From Desulfobulbaceae bacterium (GTDB lineage: Bacteria > Desulfobacterota > Desulfobulbia > Desulfobulbales > Desulfocapsaceae), in NCBI GenBank assembly GCA_024636345.1, contig JAGXHG010000008.1:1-64000 (forward strand): a stretch of 64,000 nucleotides of DNA, read 5' to 3'. Each line of letters begins with the position of its first letter. Position 1 is the stretch's first letter. This document shows positions 3,728 through 33,831 of the stretch, one piece after another. The position numbers and the translations under genes are program-made. The notes under the pieces are model-generated. The model did no database searches and was not told the origin of the DNA. It saw nothing but the letters and a program-made list of their open reading frames with translations.

Positions 3728-3747
3728 CTTTGGTAAGGAGAATCGTC

Positions 3748-3996
3748 ATGATTGATAAAAAAGTGCTATGTGAAAAAATTACTTCCATTTATCCGGAAAT
3801 CGGGCATTGCGGTATTAATATCGATGTTGATTTTAACAAGGAGAAAGAGGCGTGGGTTGTTGATTTAAAGAAAGACAAACACCACTTGCAGACACATCTC
3901 GAAATTAATGAGGCGGATCAATGTATGGTCGGAAAGAAGTGCGTCTCTCTCGGAATTCAGATTGCGCAACTAATAGAAAATATAAAGACTGCCTGA
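3748..3996 (+). CDS. Small conserved-type hypothetical protein (82 aa)
   Basis: Not recognised as any named family. The ATG at 3748 has a strong RBS (TAAGGAG, 7 bases upstream) and starts 20 bases after korB, so it is probably co-transcribed with the oxidoreductase. The protein is acidic/lysine-rich with no membrane segment. It has four cysteines (CEK near the start, GHCGIN, DQCMV and KKCVS), which could bind metal or form disulfides. It opens the run of small redox-associated genes that extends to about 7382. Confidence 0.7.
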   Translation: MIDKKVLCEKITSIYPEIGHCGINIDVDFNKEKEAWVVDLKKDKHHLQTHLEINEADQCMVGKKCVSLGIQIAQLIENIKTA

Positions 3997-5172: not shown

Positions 5173-5284
5173 GGATAAAATCACACTAACGAACATAACG
5201 AACAATCATTTCTGTTGTATCCACCGCGCAGTTAACCCTGGCCTGATGTAAAGGCTTGTTACATTCGTCAAAGGAGATTTAGCC

Positions 5285-5851
5285 ATGAAAATGAACTGGG
5301 AAACAGATTTTAAGCGAGCCATGAAACGTTCAACAGCGGAACACAAACCTGTACTGCTGGATTTTTTCAATCCGCAATGAATTGGTTGCCAACAGATGGA
5401 TGCAGTTACGTATCCAAATGAAAGGTTAATCGAATTTATCAATCAAAACGTTATCCCTGTGCGTGTGCTGTCGGATCAGCAGCCTTTGGCCACGGATTAC
5501 ACTATCAAGTGGACTCCGGCACTGCTTATTCTCGATCAGGATGGCAAGGAGCACTTTCGATCCGTTGGTTTTTTGAGTGCCGAAGAGTTGATCCCCTCGA
5601 TTCTACTCGGCATTGGCAATGTCCATTTTAATAAAGATGAATTCAAAGATACTCTTTGTTGTTATGAAAAGCTGCTGACAGAGTATCCCGAAAGTGATTC
5701 CGTGCCGGAGGCCATATTCCAGAAGGGGGTTACTCTGTATAAAAACACACATAACCCGAAACCGCTCAGAGATGCCTATAATCAGTTGCAGGATAAGTAC
5801 CCGGCCAGCCAGTGGACGAAGCGAGCTTACCCGTATAGGCTTATTGAATAG
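5285..5851 (+). CDS. Thioredoxin-fold/TPR protein with in-frame UGA, probable selenoprotein (Sec32-x-x-Cys35)
   Basis: A single frame runs 5285-5851 (188 codons) if the UGA at 5378-5380 is read as an amino acid. Upstream of it is a thioredoxin strand (KPVLLDFFNPQ). After it come IGCQQM and the downstream helix and strand (YPNERLIEFINQNVIPVRV), then a cis-Pro region (IKWTPALLILDQDG). The UGA sits exactly where the first Cys of a CxxC redox motif belongs, giving U-I-G-C. Residues from about 110 on look like TPR/YbgF-type repeats (GNVHFNKDEFKDTLCCYEKLL). A SECIS-like hairpin lies 18-35 bases after the UGA. The start ATG has AAAGGAG at about 5270. The alternative, a nonsense mutation with a restart at 5396, would remove both the thioredoxin strand and the catalytic motif. 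Confidence 0.82.
5398..5415 (+). promoter_or_regulatory. Bacterial SECIS-like hairpin
   Basis: GGATGC (5398-5403) pairs with GTATCC (5410-5415) in six consecutive pairs (one G-U) around the loop AGTTAC. The loop G is 25 bases after the UGA at 5378-5380. Known bacterial SECIS elements place a short stem with a G (usually GU) at the start of the apical loop about 16-37 bases downstream of the Sec codon, so spacing, stem and loop agree. The hairpin is inside the coding sequence, as expected for bacteria. Confidence 0.7.
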
Positions 5852-5888: not shown

Positions 5889-6248
5889 ATGCCTACAATT
5901 GAATGTGGTGGAAAACAGATTGCCATCGATGACAAGGGATTTCTGTCTAATATTGATGACTGGACCGAGGGTGTTGCTCAGGTCCTGGCTCAACGGGAAG
6001 GCTTAGCCACTTTAACGGACGAGCAGATGGTAATAATTAAATTTCTGCGCGACTATTATAAAACATTTACCTCCTTTCCTATCTTGAATTACGTGTGCAA
6101 GCATACCCATCAGCAAAAAAAATGTGTCAACGAGCAATTCGTTAATCCTGAGAAAGCCTGGAAGATTGCCGGGCTTCCTCTCTTGGACGGTATTCATTTC
6201 GTGTCGATGGATGGAGGTAAACATTATTTAATGGAGGAGTGCTGCTGA
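5889..6248 (+). CDS. DsrC/TusE-family protein with a non-canonical C-terminus
   Basis: Sulfur-carrier family related to DsrC/TusE. It has the family N-terminus (ECGGKQIAIDDKGFL, IDDWTEGVAQVLA), the LTDEQMVIIKFLRDYY helix and the KAWKIAGLP segment. In DsrC the conserved tail reads roughly ACKIAGLPKPTGC(V), with two functional cysteines. Here the first is Trp (AWKIAGLP) and the second is absent; the protein is instead extended and ends ECC. It is therefore probably not a classical DsrAB trisulfide carrier, but a paralogue whose terminal Cys pair may do related chemistry. RBS ACAAGGAGG precedes the ATG. It lies 37 bases after the thioredoxin-like gene and is probably in the same operon. Confidence 0.85.
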   Translation: MPTIECGGKQIAIDDKGFLSNIDDWTEGVAQVLAQREGLATLTDEQMVIIKFLRDYYKTFTSFPILNYVCKHTHQQKKCVNEQFVNPEKAWKIAGLPLLDGIHFVSMDGGKHYLMEECC

Positions 6249-6473: not shown

Positions 6474-6971
6474 ATGAATATCTATCAATTCGCCATGCAA
6501 ATGGAAAAAGACGGTGAAAATTACTATCGCCGGTTGGCAAAAGAGTGCACTTTGTCCGGGCTTTCCAGGATATTCCTGATGTTGGCTGATGAAGAGGTCA
6601 AGCATTACAATATGATTGAACGGTTGAGCCGTAAGGAGACAAATCCTCAACTGGTTGAAGCCAGGGTATTGGAAAATGTTAAAAATGTCTTTGTCACCAT
6701 GCAGACGGCAAAAGAGGATTTGCATATCGATACTACAAAGGCGGCCAGTGAATACAGAAAGGCTTGTACAATTGAGGAGATTAGCCAGAAATTTTATCAG
6801 GAAAAGGCTGGCTTGGTCGAAGAAGGGTATGAACGACAGATATTTTTACGATTAGCAAAAGAAGAGGAAAAGCACCTATGGATAATGGAAAATATTGTTG
6901 AATTTGTTTCGAGACCGGAGCCAGGAAACTGGCTTGAAAATGCGGAATGGCATCATCTCGACGAGTATTGA
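6474..6971 (+). CDS. Rubrerythrin-like ferritin-family protein
   Basis: Four-helix-bundle di-iron protein of the rubrerythrin/ferritin-like superfamily. Seen: a helix with EKDGENYYRRLA, the first ExxH (ADEEVKHYNM), a third helix with EKAGLVEEGYERQIF, and the second ExxH (AKEEEKHLWIM). The arrangement is like other rubrerythrin ferritin-like domains without the C-terminal rubredoxin domain (no CxxC pair). Family members reduce peroxide in anaerobes. AAAAAGGAG precedes the ATG. It follows the DsrC-like gene by 225 bases, so it may have its own promoter within the oxidative-stress-like cluster. Confidence 0.85.
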   Translation: MNIYQFAMQMEKDGENYYRRLAKECTLSGLSRIFLMLADEEVKHYNMIERLSRKETNPQLVEARVLENVKNVFVTMQTAKEDLHIDTTKAASEYRKACTIEEISQKFYQEKAGLVEEGYERQIFLRLAKEEEKHLWIMENIVEFVSRPEPGNWLENAEWHHLDEY

Positions 6972-29756: not shown

Positions 29757-30228
29757 AGAGATGATTCATAGCTGAAGAGTGGAGAGTTTGCTGATAAAAA
29801 TAAGGCGTTTTGAGGCAAGTCTTGAAAAATCACATATCGCGCGTTCTCTCTTGGCACATGATGAGTACCAGGGACAGCTTGGTCGGATCTTGACCTTGAA
29901 TTTTCAAATCAAAGTTTCTTACAAGGGTGAAAACGGGCCATTTTATGGGTTTTCTGCAATGATGACTGGCTGTTGACTTCGTCCAACCCGGTGTTATTAA
30001 GCGTTCCTGTGTTAAGTAAAAAGCTTAGCATGAATTACCAGCCGAAGGCAAGGGCGTTACTGCGAGGTAGGGTCTGAAGGAAGCCGGAGTGCAAACTTGT
30101 GAGCTGATGGATAGAAACGTCATATAAGGCCGAATCCCTGGGTAAGGCAGCACGAGATGTCAACGCCAAGGAACAGAAACAAAATTCTGGGGACATAATA
30201 ACTAATTAAATTTTAAATAAGTATTATG
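29757..30228. other. Intergenic region 472 bp with intron and repeat remnants
   Basis: The left part (29780-29990) has a 65-codon open frame with no recognisable similarity, which I do not call. The middle part looks like a group II intron fragment, and the right part holds the 9-bp inverted repeat at the end of the NTPase gene. See separate entries. Confidence 0.6.
30010..30185 (+). mobile_element. Probable group II intron remnant (domain I region)
   Basis: The stretch with CAGCCGAAGGCAAGGGCGTT, GCGAGGTAGGGTCTGAAGGA and AGCCGGAGTGCAAACTTGTG, then GAACAGAAAC, matches the conserved 5' structural region I recall from bacterial ltrA-type group II introns. No intron-encoded reverse transcriptase, domain V/VI or 3' end follows; the sequence breaks off into AT-rich DNA at about 30190. 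It is a truncated, immobile fragment. Confidence 0.55.
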
Positions 30229-30230
30229 TC
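30192..30230. repeat. 9-bp inverted repeat GACATAATA/TATTATGTC
   Basis: GACATAATA (30192-30200) and TATTATGTC (30222-30230) are exact inverted copies around an AT-rich core, ending on the stop codon of the NTPase gene. TTCTGGGGACATAATA is reminiscent of sequences flanking REP-associated (Y1) transposases. It could also act as a terminator for the minus-strand gene. Confidence 0.45.
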
Positions 30231-33200
30231 ATTCAGAATGATCACTTGATTTAAAAGTATTGATTTTTATCGAGCCGACTTCTTCTTTTAGTGAAGAGAT
30301 GAATCCTTTTGCTTCTAAAAGTCTGGCAAATGCAAGATTAATTTTATTACTATTAAGTTTTGGGCGTTTTCCATATGAAGTAATTTCGCTAAAAGGCTCA
30401 GGAAAATCAGCAAGAACTTCCATAGTCTTTTGCTCATCCCAAATTGAAAGACACTTCGTAAGAAGCCGAATGGAATCCTCGGTTGTCTGAGCATTAATAA
30501 TTGCTGATGACAGAACAGCATCGTCAAATCTTGAACAATCTATTTCATTCGATACAAGTAAGTTTGCGATAAGACGAGACAGTTTCTCGCTTTTTATAGC
30601 ACCTGCTGGTGTAACATCAGAGCATACAATGATTTTATTTTCATTACTCATTTCACTTGAAAGCAGCAATTCACGAACATCATCACTAATCGGGTATTTC
30701 TCCTTTTCTTTTTGATACTCATTGAAATTCTTATTTATCAATATTGCCGTAAGATAATTATCACCATTAGCAAAAATAAAAGAATTTTCGTTAAGTCTTA
30801 CAGTTCTTTCTTGGGCTAGGCATTTAATCTTTTCTTCAGAGACTTCTGCCGGAAAATTGTTGTAAATATAAGGAAGGCATTTTATCAGCTTGCAATAATC
30901 AGAGTCTTTTGTCTCGTTGTTATTGAAGACAAAACTGGACAATGACTTACTATCATCTTCGCCAAGATCAGTTATCGAAATGTTTAGGTTTGAAAGAGAG
31001 TCCACAATATTCTGACGACATAAAAGCTTAGTCACTACTGCCTTATCACTATCTTCATAACCAAGATATCCTGAAATGTTTTGCCAGGAGATGACTATTT
31101 TCTCTTCCAAAAGTAAGTGTGACCAGAGGTTCCCTGGAACCCCTTCAAATGTATCAAATACGTAGCCTTGCTTTAAGATAATTTTTTCCTTCAGGTTATC
31201 CTCAATCATCTCATTATTGATGAGTATTTTAATTGCAGCTTCACTCTCCTCTGTATTATCCGGGAGAATGAGAAACACCTTTTCGATGTAATCCGGTAAA
31301 TTCTCTTCAATATATTTTTTAAGACATTCACTTCCCGCAGCTAGTATTGATGTGTAATTAGCCTTTTCAGGTTTCAGGTTATCAACACTTTGTGAATCCG
31401 CAAACGTCTGGAGGATATAACTCACATTTTTAGAAGTAATTGTATAAAGGCACTCTTCGTGGGCAAACTCAAGTACGGAATTATTTTTTTCTAACGCAAC
31501 CAAATCATGGAAGCGTACATTCAACATTTTAAGAACGTTATAGTCATCAGGCATCTGAAGATCGGAAGCAAAGACAAGATGCCCTTGTTCAGAGAGGTAC
31601 TCTGTAAGCAGGTTCTCTATATTCATACTCTCGCTTACATACTTAGCCCCAACGAATTTAAGAATATATGAAATCTGTTCTGCACCATGTTCTGAAGATA
31701 TTGCAGTCGTCGCAAACTCAGGCCATTCCCGACTCAAATAGCGGATAAACTCATCTAGATGTTTGCCAGCAATAAAATAAGCCGTAAAAAACTCTTCGGA
31801 CTGTTTGAAATTTTGAGACATGTAGTGCATGGTCGACTTAATGCGTTTCGAACTTGTTTCATTGTTTTCAAGTAGATAGTCTATGAGTGTCACATTCAAT
31901 ACATATTTATGCCCGAAATCTTCCTCGCGCATATTTGCGCAAACCTCTTTCGGAGTATCTAGCTTTTGATTTGGATCAGGCTGATTAAAATTACGGATAG
32001 TGAGAAGGTAGTCACGGTCATTTTTGGTTAAACGACCTTCATGGAAGTTTGATATGTAAAGATGGTAGTTATCATCAAGATATCCATTTTTTACTAAATA
32101 TACGAGAAGTCTATCATCGGTGATTTTGTCTCCATGGATCAATTGATCGACTTCGATATCACCACTTTGTAGCAGTTGAAAAAGCTGTAATTGCGAAAGT
32201 TCAGAAATCTCCTCTTCAACTCGCTTAATTTTTTGTTGCAACACGATTTTCCTGAGACTCAAGTTATTCTCTAGATTTTCCTTCCTGCTCAAGAACGTCT
32301 CACCGGGGTTAATCTCTTCTTCAATTTGTGAAAATGATTTATTTGTTGCTATTCTGCAGTTGGGGTGATTCTGATGAGTGGCCAATAGTATATTTTTATC
32401 AGAAAGAAGGGGTTTGAATTGGTCAAAAGTTGTTAGCTGTGAAAATAAGACATGCTTATTATTTGATATAATTCCTATTACTGGCTCGCTAGCATACATC
32501 GTTACGATATGCCCGATATATGTATCTATAAGCTCTCGAATATTTTTTGCTTTCTCAGTGTTCGCCAATTCTAGAGAAGCTCTAAGCTCTTCAAGTCTGT
32601 CCTTCAATTGGTCTTTGGATTTCTGTAGATACTCCACCCTTTTTCTGCAGATTTCAAAAAAATCTCCTTGGCCGTGATGAAGATTCTCAAAATCATCGGG
32701 GTACACATTTTTGTAAACCATCATTGCAAAAAGTTTTGTTACATCTAGACTTTCACTTTTAAGACGTTCGTAGTAGATCACAAACTCGTTAAAAATATTT
32801 TTAACAAGCCGCAAATCATTGATGTAAAGTGAAACCTCACGTAGAAATTGCGCATCTATACCTTTCGCAAAATCATGTTTTTTCAAACGCTCTTGCATCT
32901 TATCCAATGAATTTGAACTATTAATAATAGGAACCACTGGGATGATGAAATCAAAGAACTTTGTACGATTTTCATGGACAAACATGTCATCTTTAAGAGC
33001 ATACAGAAATTTTATTTGACCACTAGTCTTCTCGTTATCGTTTATGAGTTTGTTAATTTCGCGAAGTTTTACAAAGATTTCTGGGTCTCCGAACCTATCA
33101 AGATCTTCTATGACGACCACATCATAATCTGTCACCTGGAAGAAGTAGATGATTTCATCAAGATGGCGATTCAAGATTGAATTTTCAGAAAGTTCACTAG

Positions 33201-33831
33201 TCTCAACTTCTCCATTTTTAAAAGAAAATTTCTTTAACGAAAGTCCAACAGAGGATTTATAGATATCTGAGATAATGACTACAGGGAGGGAAATTACAAA
33301 AGCAAAAAGCGAAATCCCGCCAAACCAAAGCAAAGAAAAAGATTCAAGATCAAGCAACTTATTGTGACTATAATATAGTGAAATCGAGACAATAGGCCAT
33401 AAGACCAAGAGCAGTGACTTGAACAATGGTTGTTCAGCTGTGGAAATTCGCTTGAAGCGAGAATATGGCAACTTATTAGCATCTGCTCCATATAGCATCT
33501 GCTGAAGGATGCTTCTTTCAATTGATTTGATATCAACAGTATTACTCTTATCTTCTTGGAATGATGCTAACGAGATGTTTAAGAATTTGTAATCGTTATT
33601 CTTTTCATAAGTCCTGATGATACTACTTTTTCCGGATCCATATGGTCCGCTAAGTGCAAAGTTTTTTATGCGGGAATTTTCAAGTGCAAAAGAAAGTGCC
33701 TTTGAATAAGTCCCATCTTGATCTGCATTATCAACTGGGGTTAGATCGGTGAAAGGAGAATTTTCTGGAGCAACAAAGATCTTCGTTACCTTTTTAAGGA
33801 GCCTATTAGTAAATCGATACAATTTCATCAT
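30229..33831 (-). CDS. Large YobI/KAP-like membrane P-loop NTPase (1200 aa)
   Basis: The N-terminal third is a P-loop NTPase: FALSGPYGSGKSSIIRTYEK (Walker A at 62-70) and DVVVIEDLDRFGDPEIF (Walker B at 237-245). Two membrane spans (about 136-155 and 166-188) are inserted between them, an arrangement known from KAP-family NTPases. The N-terminal FTDLTPVDNAD resembles YobI-type ATPases. Residues about 400-450 are coiled coil; the remaining 700 residues are helical with no domain I recognise. The gene is AT-rich relative to its neighbours and flanked by an intron fragment, a repeat and a vapC fragment, so it was probably acquired horizontally. A defence role is possible but unproven. Confidence 0.8.
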   Translation of the reverse strand: MMKLYRFTNRLLKKVTKIFVAPENSPFTDLTPVDNADQDGTYSKALSFALENSRIKNFALSGPYGSGKSSIIRTYEKNNDYKFLNISLASFQEDKSNTVDIKSIERSILQQMLYGADANKLPYSRFKRISTAEQPLFKSLLLVLWPIVSISLYYSHNKLLDLESFSLLWFGGISLFAFVISLPVVIISDIYKSSVGLSLKKFSFKNGEVETSELSENSILNRHLDEIIYFFQVTDYDVVVIEDLDRFGDPEIFVKLREINKLINDNEKTSGQIKFLYALKDDMFVHENRTKFFDFIIPVVPIINSSNSLDKMQERLKKHDFAKGIDAQFLREVSLYINDLRLVKNIFNEFVIYYERLKSESLDVTKLFAMMVYKNVYPDDFENLHHGQGDFFEICRKRVEYLQKSKDQLKDRLEELRASLELANTEKAKNIRELIDTYIGHIVTMYASEPVIGIISNNKHVLFSQLTTFDQFKPLLSDKNILLATHQNHPNCRIATNKSFSQIEEEINPGETFLSRKENLENNLSLRKIVLQQKIKRVEEEISELSQLQLFQLLQSGDIEVDQLIHGDKITDDRLLVYLVKNGYLDDNYHLYISNFHEGRLTKNDRDYLLTIRNFNQPDPNQKLDTPKEVCANMREEDFGHKYVLNVTLIDYLLENNETSSKRIKSTMHYMSQNFKQSEEFFTAYFIAGKHLDEFIRYLSREWPEFATTAISSEHGAEQISYILKFVGAKYVSESMNIENLLTEYLSEQGHLVFASDLQMPDDYNVLKMLNVRFHDLVALEKNNSVLEFAHEECLYTITSKNVSYILQTFADSQSVDNLKPEKANYTSILAAGSECLKKYIEENLPDYIEKVFLILPDNTEESEAAIKILINNEMIEDNLKEKIILKQGYVFDTFEGVPGNLWSHLLLEEKIVISWQNISGYLGYEDSDKAVVTKLLCRQNIVDSLSNLNISITDLGEDDSKSLSSFVFNNNETKDSDYCKLIKCLPYIYNNFPAEVSEEKIKCLAQERTVRLNENSFIFANGDNYLTAILINKNFNEYQKEKEKYPISDDVRELLLSSEMSNENKIIVCSDVTPAGAIKSEKLSRLIANLLVSNEIDCSRFDDAVLSSAIINAQTTEDSIRLLTKCLSIWDEQKTMEVLADFPEPFSEITSYGKRPKLNSNKINLAFARLLEAKGFISSLKEEVGSIKINTFKSSDHSE

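Follow-up and report, generated by a model that had tools for sequence, protein, structure and literature searches.

A predicted thioredoxin-TPR selenoprotein family in Desulfobulbaceae and other mostly anaerobic bacteria

Introduction

The pairing of a thioredoxin domain with a tetratricopeptide repeat (TPR) domain has been characterised in the CnoX/YbbN chaperedoxins (PMC6282202), and a 2026 review counts 119 selenoprotein families or subfamilies (PMC13188914). We describe a gene predicted to combine the thioredoxin-TPR pairing with selenocysteine (Sec, U). It lies near the start of a 64,000-nucleotide stretch of a Desulfobulbaceae bacterium genome (assembly GCA_024636345.1, contig JAGXHG010000008.1, positions 1 to 64,000), hereafter the window, and had been singled out by a model working from the letters alone (the sequence-only reading) as a thioredoxin-fold/TPR selenoprotein.

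The closest entry of the review is the thiol:disulfide interchange protein (PF13098, motif UxxC, Table 1 representative WP_011366075.1; PMC13188914). Such a selenoprotein has been reported in Syntrophus aciditrophicus, Geobacter metallireducens and G. uraniumreducens (spelled as in the paper; PMC1794560), and Trx-like 2 was filed under cd02953 (PMC2398784). Our protein shares with the thiol:disulfide interchange selenoprotein the PF13098/cd02953 thioredoxin domain family and an identical position of the U-x-x-C motif. We take cd02953 to be the DsbD-gamma domain. For that selenoprotein no TPR is mentioned in the available text of these three papers; the comparison is one of descriptions and not with the sequence of WP_011366075.1, which lowers our claim of novelty for the thioredoxin-TPR family. 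The seleno-thioredoxin of the same review (PF00085, UxxC; PMC13188914) likewise has Sec as the nucleophile of a thioredoxin fold, and no TPR is mentioned for it in the available text. However, the best-scoring thioredoxin subfamily differs, as the window protein matches PF13098 with 45.3 bits (cut-off 27) and PF00085 with 29.3 bits.

For the N-terminal half of the protein, the DsbD C-terminal (gamma) domain and DsbH rank among the best matches by fold and by profile. DsbD gamma and DsbH use Cys and are located in the periplasm or within a membrane protein, whereas the family protein has neither a signal peptide nor a membrane part by eye; from the lack of a signal peptide, the 188-residue selenoprotein is probably located in the cytoplasm. 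Its TPR half is of the CpoB/YbgF and BamD type. Those proteins act in the envelope and lack a redox domain. The sequence-only reading knew of no characterisation of this exact domain pairing. That is incorrect for thioredoxin-TPR proteins at large, given CnoX/YbbN, but stands for the Sec version, of which no description was found in the open-licence literature or in the available part of Table 1 of PMC13188914; the terms 'TPR', 'tetratricopeptide' and 'DsrC' do not occur in the available text of that review.

Results and Discussion

An in-frame UGA at the redox motif

The gene is read as one frame of 188 codons whose sole internal stop is a TGA (Table 1). Its context is FFNPQ-U-IGCQQMD, so that the TGA occupies the first residue of the thioredoxin CxxC motif (U-I-G-C), and the reading of the open reading frame (ORF) confirms what had been proposed on these points. 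In all 11 inspected loci a start codon is found near the same spot with a purine-rich stretch 5' of it, including GGAG in 7 of them. A scan for promoters and terminators returned sites no commoner than in shuffled sequences. The ORF listing with genetic code table 11 gives 5396-5851 only. Since these are the C-terminal 151 residues alone, ordinary gene calling would miss the redox centre of the family.

Table 1. Positions in the window of the selenoprotein gene, its parts and two neighbouring genes.
Feature	Position	Strand	Remarks
Selenoprotein gene, 188 residues, U at residue 32, TAG stop	5285..5851	+	ORF reading and homologues
AAAGGAG ribosome-binding site, 8 nt 5' of ATG 5285	5270..5276	+	Window sequence
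TGA read as Sec	5378..5380	+	68/70 order homologues; 80/80 kept named-genome loci
SECIS-like hairpin: stem 5397-5403 with 5410-5416, 6-nt loop 5404-5409 (AGUUAC), conserved loop G 5405	5397..5416	+	
Thioredoxin-fold domain, residues 1-103, DsbD-gamma/DsbH type, conserved W-T-P loop at residues 76-78	5285..5593	+	
TPR-like helical domain, residues 99-186, CpoB/BamD type	5579..5842	+	
DsrC-like gene ending ...EECC, 37 bp downstream of the selenoprotein gene	5889..6248	+	Possibly co-transcribed
Rubrerythrin-like protein	6474..6971	+	Recurrent neighbour, 9/113 loci

Homologues carry Sec or Cys at the UGA

A search of the order Desulfobulbales gave matches at E<=1e-6 in 89 of 257 genomes; some of these belong to different thioredoxin-like proteins, roughly 450 residues long, whose loci were not fetched. 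With the window, the 73 fetched loci made 74, of which 70 were retained in the order alignment (one, L102, being partial) after removal of L106 (no BLAST match), the fragment L104, the frameshifted copy L105 and the distant paralogue L107. At the UGA, the alignment column holds U in 68 of the 70 sequences and C in the other two (L098 and L103), and the second Cys of the motif, at +3, is kept in 70/70. Cys also occupies the U site in the remoter members L225, L224 and L227. The Cys homologues whose alignment at the UGA had been suggested as a check are therefore present.

In the wider phylum, 144 of the 395 genomes drawn had a match. The phylum list holds 91 places at E<=4.6e-21, 80 with one in-frame TGA and 11 without a stop. 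A scan of named genomes with the single peptide pattern IGC[QK]QMD[AT] found TGA before IGC in all of the best 80 of 159 relatives, many of the loci coming from the same genomes as in the order search; with one pattern and only the best 80 kept, Cys or diverged forms are under-sampled and close relatives favoured. The record titles of these loci name Desulfobulbaceae, Syntrophaceae, Desulfomonile, Nitrospirota, a Nitrospinota bin and the anammox genera Brocadia and Jettenia. Judged from these sequences, relatives with the UGA are distributed over several bacterial groups, most of them anaerobic, and the computation supports this spread over phyla. Plasmid records contributed 2 weak matches among 72,556.

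In a tree of 147 rows (135 with U, 12 without), the U label needs five changes, four of them forced by well-supported branches. The bootstrap was unsettled and several long branches meet, leaving the deep nodes unsure. A repeated change from Sec to Cys within the family is supported by this computation. In one clade of the family (f72; L228-L234 and L226), the active-site pair is partly or wholly lost (e.g. DCAGS, ECQSS, GCEGS, EEGSQ) while the profile match is kept; this clade is perhaps a non-redox descendant. Apart from the TPR family, three shorter proteins consisting of the thioredoxin domain only, L245 and L246 (GUPHC) and L247 (WUTYC), carry a TGA in frame where the first CxxC residue belongs, and may be the known PF13098 UxxC selenoproteins.

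A SECIS-like hairpin downstream of the UGA

A hairpin resembling a selenocysteine insertion sequence (SECIS) spans 19-38 nt past the T of the TGA. We analysed it in 114 non-redundant sequences, obtained from 148 UGA sequences. The loop G stands at index 27 in 114/114, and the stem reaches at least 6 bp in 110 of them, against 17.3 in synonymous shuffles. The codon at the loop-closing pair encodes Thr, Ser or Ala, and its third base is G in all 114 although the amino acid varies. A hairpin with G in the first two loop positions is found in 114/114 sequences, with a mean of 85.9 in the synonymous control. Since any short hairpin is thus common in the control, the weight lies on how long the stem is and on the invariant third positions.

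Folding energy was compared with within-gene synonymous shuffles for the first 90 of the 114 sequences, giving a mean z of -1.07 in the first 48 nt and values between -0.33 and +0.17 in six later windows. The window sequence by itself has a z-score of -1.90. Taken as a whole, the RNA signal is strong for the family and modest for a single sequence. The case for the SECIS rests on third-position conservation, the hairpin being conserved beyond the needs of the protein.

Codons upstream of the UGA

The full 31 codons upstream of the TGA were available for 113 of the non-redundant UGA sequences, and none of the 113 contains a stop there. The median ratio of non-synonymous to synonymous substitution rates (dN/dS) is 0.16 upstream of the UGA (107 pairs) versus 0.11 in the downstream part beyond its first 20 codons (113 pairs), with a mean identity to the window protein of 47% and 52%, respectively. 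By these measures the 31 codons before the UGA are conserved under purifying selection. A lack of conservation in this segment, which the sequence-only reading had named as evidence against Sec, was thus not observed.

These data bear on the possibility that the TGA is a true stop in a truncated gene, the real product being the 151-residue ORF from ATG 5396, a codon kept in 113/114 sequences and the start of the only frame listed with table 11. We consider this very improbable: the first 31 codons are free of stops and under purifying selection, a start at ATG 5396 would remove the redox motif, no Shine-Dalgarno sequence precedes 5396 by eye, all 70 order sequences show either U or C at the TGA, and the SECIS is conserved.

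Selenocysteine machinery

The genome of the window encodes SelA (634 bits), SelB (394 bits), SelD (376.5 bits) and a tRNA-Sec with anticodon TCA, so that the sel genes that were to be looked for are all found. Its selD (L109, G000:C9:23604-24545) itself contains one in-frame TGA, consistent with a Sec-containing SelD. SelB is above the cut-off in 60 of the 67 order genomes with the UGA form; it is also above the cut-off in 214 of the 257 genomes of the order, and its presence alone therefore says little. All 12 further genomes examined encode SelB above the cut-off, namely the Cys-form genomes G128 and G140 and ten from the named-genome loci, including Brocadia, Jettenia, Nitrospirota and Nitrospinota.

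The same observations address a genome-wide reassignment of TGA, for instance to Trp, in place of Sec recoding. No support for it was found: 30 of the 70 family genes end in TGA as their final stop, tRNA-Sec, selA, selB and selD are present, and the alternative residue in close relatives is Cys and not Trp. We give this explanation a negligible probability. A simple pseudogene was ruled out by the conserved upstream codons, the U/C column, the SECIS and the sel genes.

Comparative evidence makes it near certain that the UGA is decoded as selenocysteine; the computation supports both this decoding and the SECIS. The preference for a Sec codon over a mutation, expressed from the letters of one gene, is borne out by the 68 U and 2 C of 70, the sel genes and the conserved upstream codons.

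The UGA form is also present in planctomycetes (L142-L145, L148, L150, L152 and L166; Brocadia, Jettenia and one Planctomycetota bin), and SelB exceeds the cut-off in the 4/4 planctomycete genomes checked (L144, L150, L152 and L166). This sequence evidence suggests that anammox bacteria use selenocysteine. On anammox and selenocysteine together, a literature search gave PMC3655542, whose available text has the word in its reference list only.

Two domains and their likeness to CnoX

The AlphaFold2 model (predicted local distance difference test, pLDDT, 97.7) shows a DsbD-gamma-like thioredoxin fold followed by two TPR-like repeats. Among 60 members, Pfam Thioredoxin_2 matches 60 and TPR_6 matches 54, at E<=0.01. 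The computation thus supports both domains, in agreement with the thioredoxin-fold sequence on both sides of the UGA and the TPR-like C-terminal half first noticed in the letters. No single chain covering both domains well was seen among the 50 matches listed. No listed NCBIfam model reaches its cut-off for the window protein, the best being TsoB (42.7 bits versus 805). The TsoX (HSGNPxU) and HUIPC thioredoxin-like families were considered because of their motifs, and neither is among the families listed at E<=0.1 for the window protein or at E<=0.01 for the 60 members.

The architecture raises the possibility of a selenium chaperedoxin analogous to CnoX, in which the TPR would hold unfolding or oxidised clients, and Sec would reduce or shield their thiols before hand-over to refolding machines. 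The order of the domains, thioredoxin then TPR, is that of CnoX (PMC6282202), and E. coli YbbN/CnoX (3qou) is the third of 1535 Foldseek matches. However, this match extends over 192 columns with a root-mean-square deviation of 12.2 A and a target TM-score of 0.29, indicating a different domain arrangement, and hhalign aligned the thioredoxin part alone (residues 7-107; probability 3%, E 0.014), leaving the TPR part unaligned. The family further differs from CnoX by its Sec (Cys or Ser in CnoX), its DsbD-gamma-like thioredoxin domain and its length (188 versus 284 residues), and with only two TPR repeats there is little room for a client groove. Among neighbouring genes, Hsp20 is adjacent on the same strand in 3/113 loci, and 3/113 have a nearby protein judged FKBP-like by eye; the link to Hsp20 is one of few loci. 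We regard a CnoX-like function as unlikely.

Gene neighbourhood and proposed function

Neighbours were counted within 2.5 kb in 113 non-redundant loci, which are not phylogenetically independent, and the counts are given without a chance expectation. L102 was excluded because its copy is partial; it also adjoins desulfoferrodoxin. A conserved operon was looked for; the commonest neighbour clusters accompany the gene in 12 of the 113 loci at most. This highest count is reached by a 2-oxoacid oxidoreductase alpha subunit and by an 84-residue protein (12/113 each). A thioredoxin reductase-like flavoprotein is near 10/113, adjacent and on the same strand in eight and on the opposite strand in L189 and L206 (Nitrospirota); it has a CVDC motif and matches TIGR01292 with 122 bits, below the cut-off of 343. 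A DsrC-like protein is near 7/113, desulfoferrodoxin and pirin near 6/113 each, and a YpdA-like flavoprotein near 3/113. These neighbours, each in a minority of loci, point to thiol redox and oxygen defence.

The best reading, to which we give somewhat better than even chances, is that of a TPR-docked, flavoprotein-charged, selenium-based reductase. SelB and tRNA-Sec would decode the UGA as Sec, aided by the SECIS hairpin. The product would be a cytoplasmic selenoprotein whose DsbD-gamma-like thioredoxin domain is continued by a small TPR domain of two repeats. Its Se-S pair would be charged by a flavoprotein akin to thioredoxin reductase. Clients docked in the TPR groove would then have their disulfides or sulfenic acids reduced by the selenolate, which would contribute to oxidative-stress survival in anaerobes. 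Here we infer the direction of electron flow, the flavoprotein partner, the docking by the TPR, the stress role, and the client and physiology. Several results weigh against this reading. TPR_6 scores 19.4 bits in the window protein, below its cut-off of 26.3; covariation in the SECIS is weak, with double changes in 1/6 pairs (58 sequences); and in the other 7 of the 67 order genomes with the UGA form, searched again, SelB did not reach the cut-off in any, a missing contig being the likely reason as these are draft bins of 160-410 contigs.

The same neighbourhoods could instead indicate an electron carrier dedicated to one partner encoded nearby, be it desulfoferrodoxin, rubrerythrin or a DsrC-like protein whose C terminus has a Cys pair. 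All three recur at the frequencies given above and in Table 1, a DsrC-like gene lies directly downstream in the window, and 7/7 of the DsrC-like proteins near the family end in CC. None of these partners, however, is present in a majority of loci. Iron redox enzymes as a rule draw electrons from rubredoxin and not from thiols, which we also count against a dedicated carrier. Such a function appears quite improbable.

The family points to Sec use in anammox bacteria and provides a redox-plus-docking protein testable in anaerobes. With members in several phyla, a large majority of Sec forms and only a few changes to Cys, it also lends itself to the question why selenium is retained in a thioredoxin-like protein. 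Only tentatively, and with the odds against it, can one propose a widespread selenium chaperedoxin family, shared by anammox planctomycetes, Nitrospirota, Nitrospinota and the sulfate reducers with their relatives, that is mostly Sec and rarely Cys, charged by a thioredoxin reductase-like flavoprotein and bound to its clients by the TPR; if true, this too would mean that anammox bacteria use selenocysteine.

Other observations

Several recurrent neighbour clusters (minus-strand ORFs, e.g. L087|-385) look like within-genus synteny or spurious antisense frames, and were not used. The recurrent small neighbour is a protein of 84-88 residues without Pfam match (window 3730-3996, L043), with relatives in 12/113 loci. 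Elsewhere in the window, a group II intron D1D4-3 match (55.8 bits) at 30056-30230 abuts the end of a 1200-residue minus-strand ORF (30229-33831), which carries a GPYGSGKSS P-loop-like motif.
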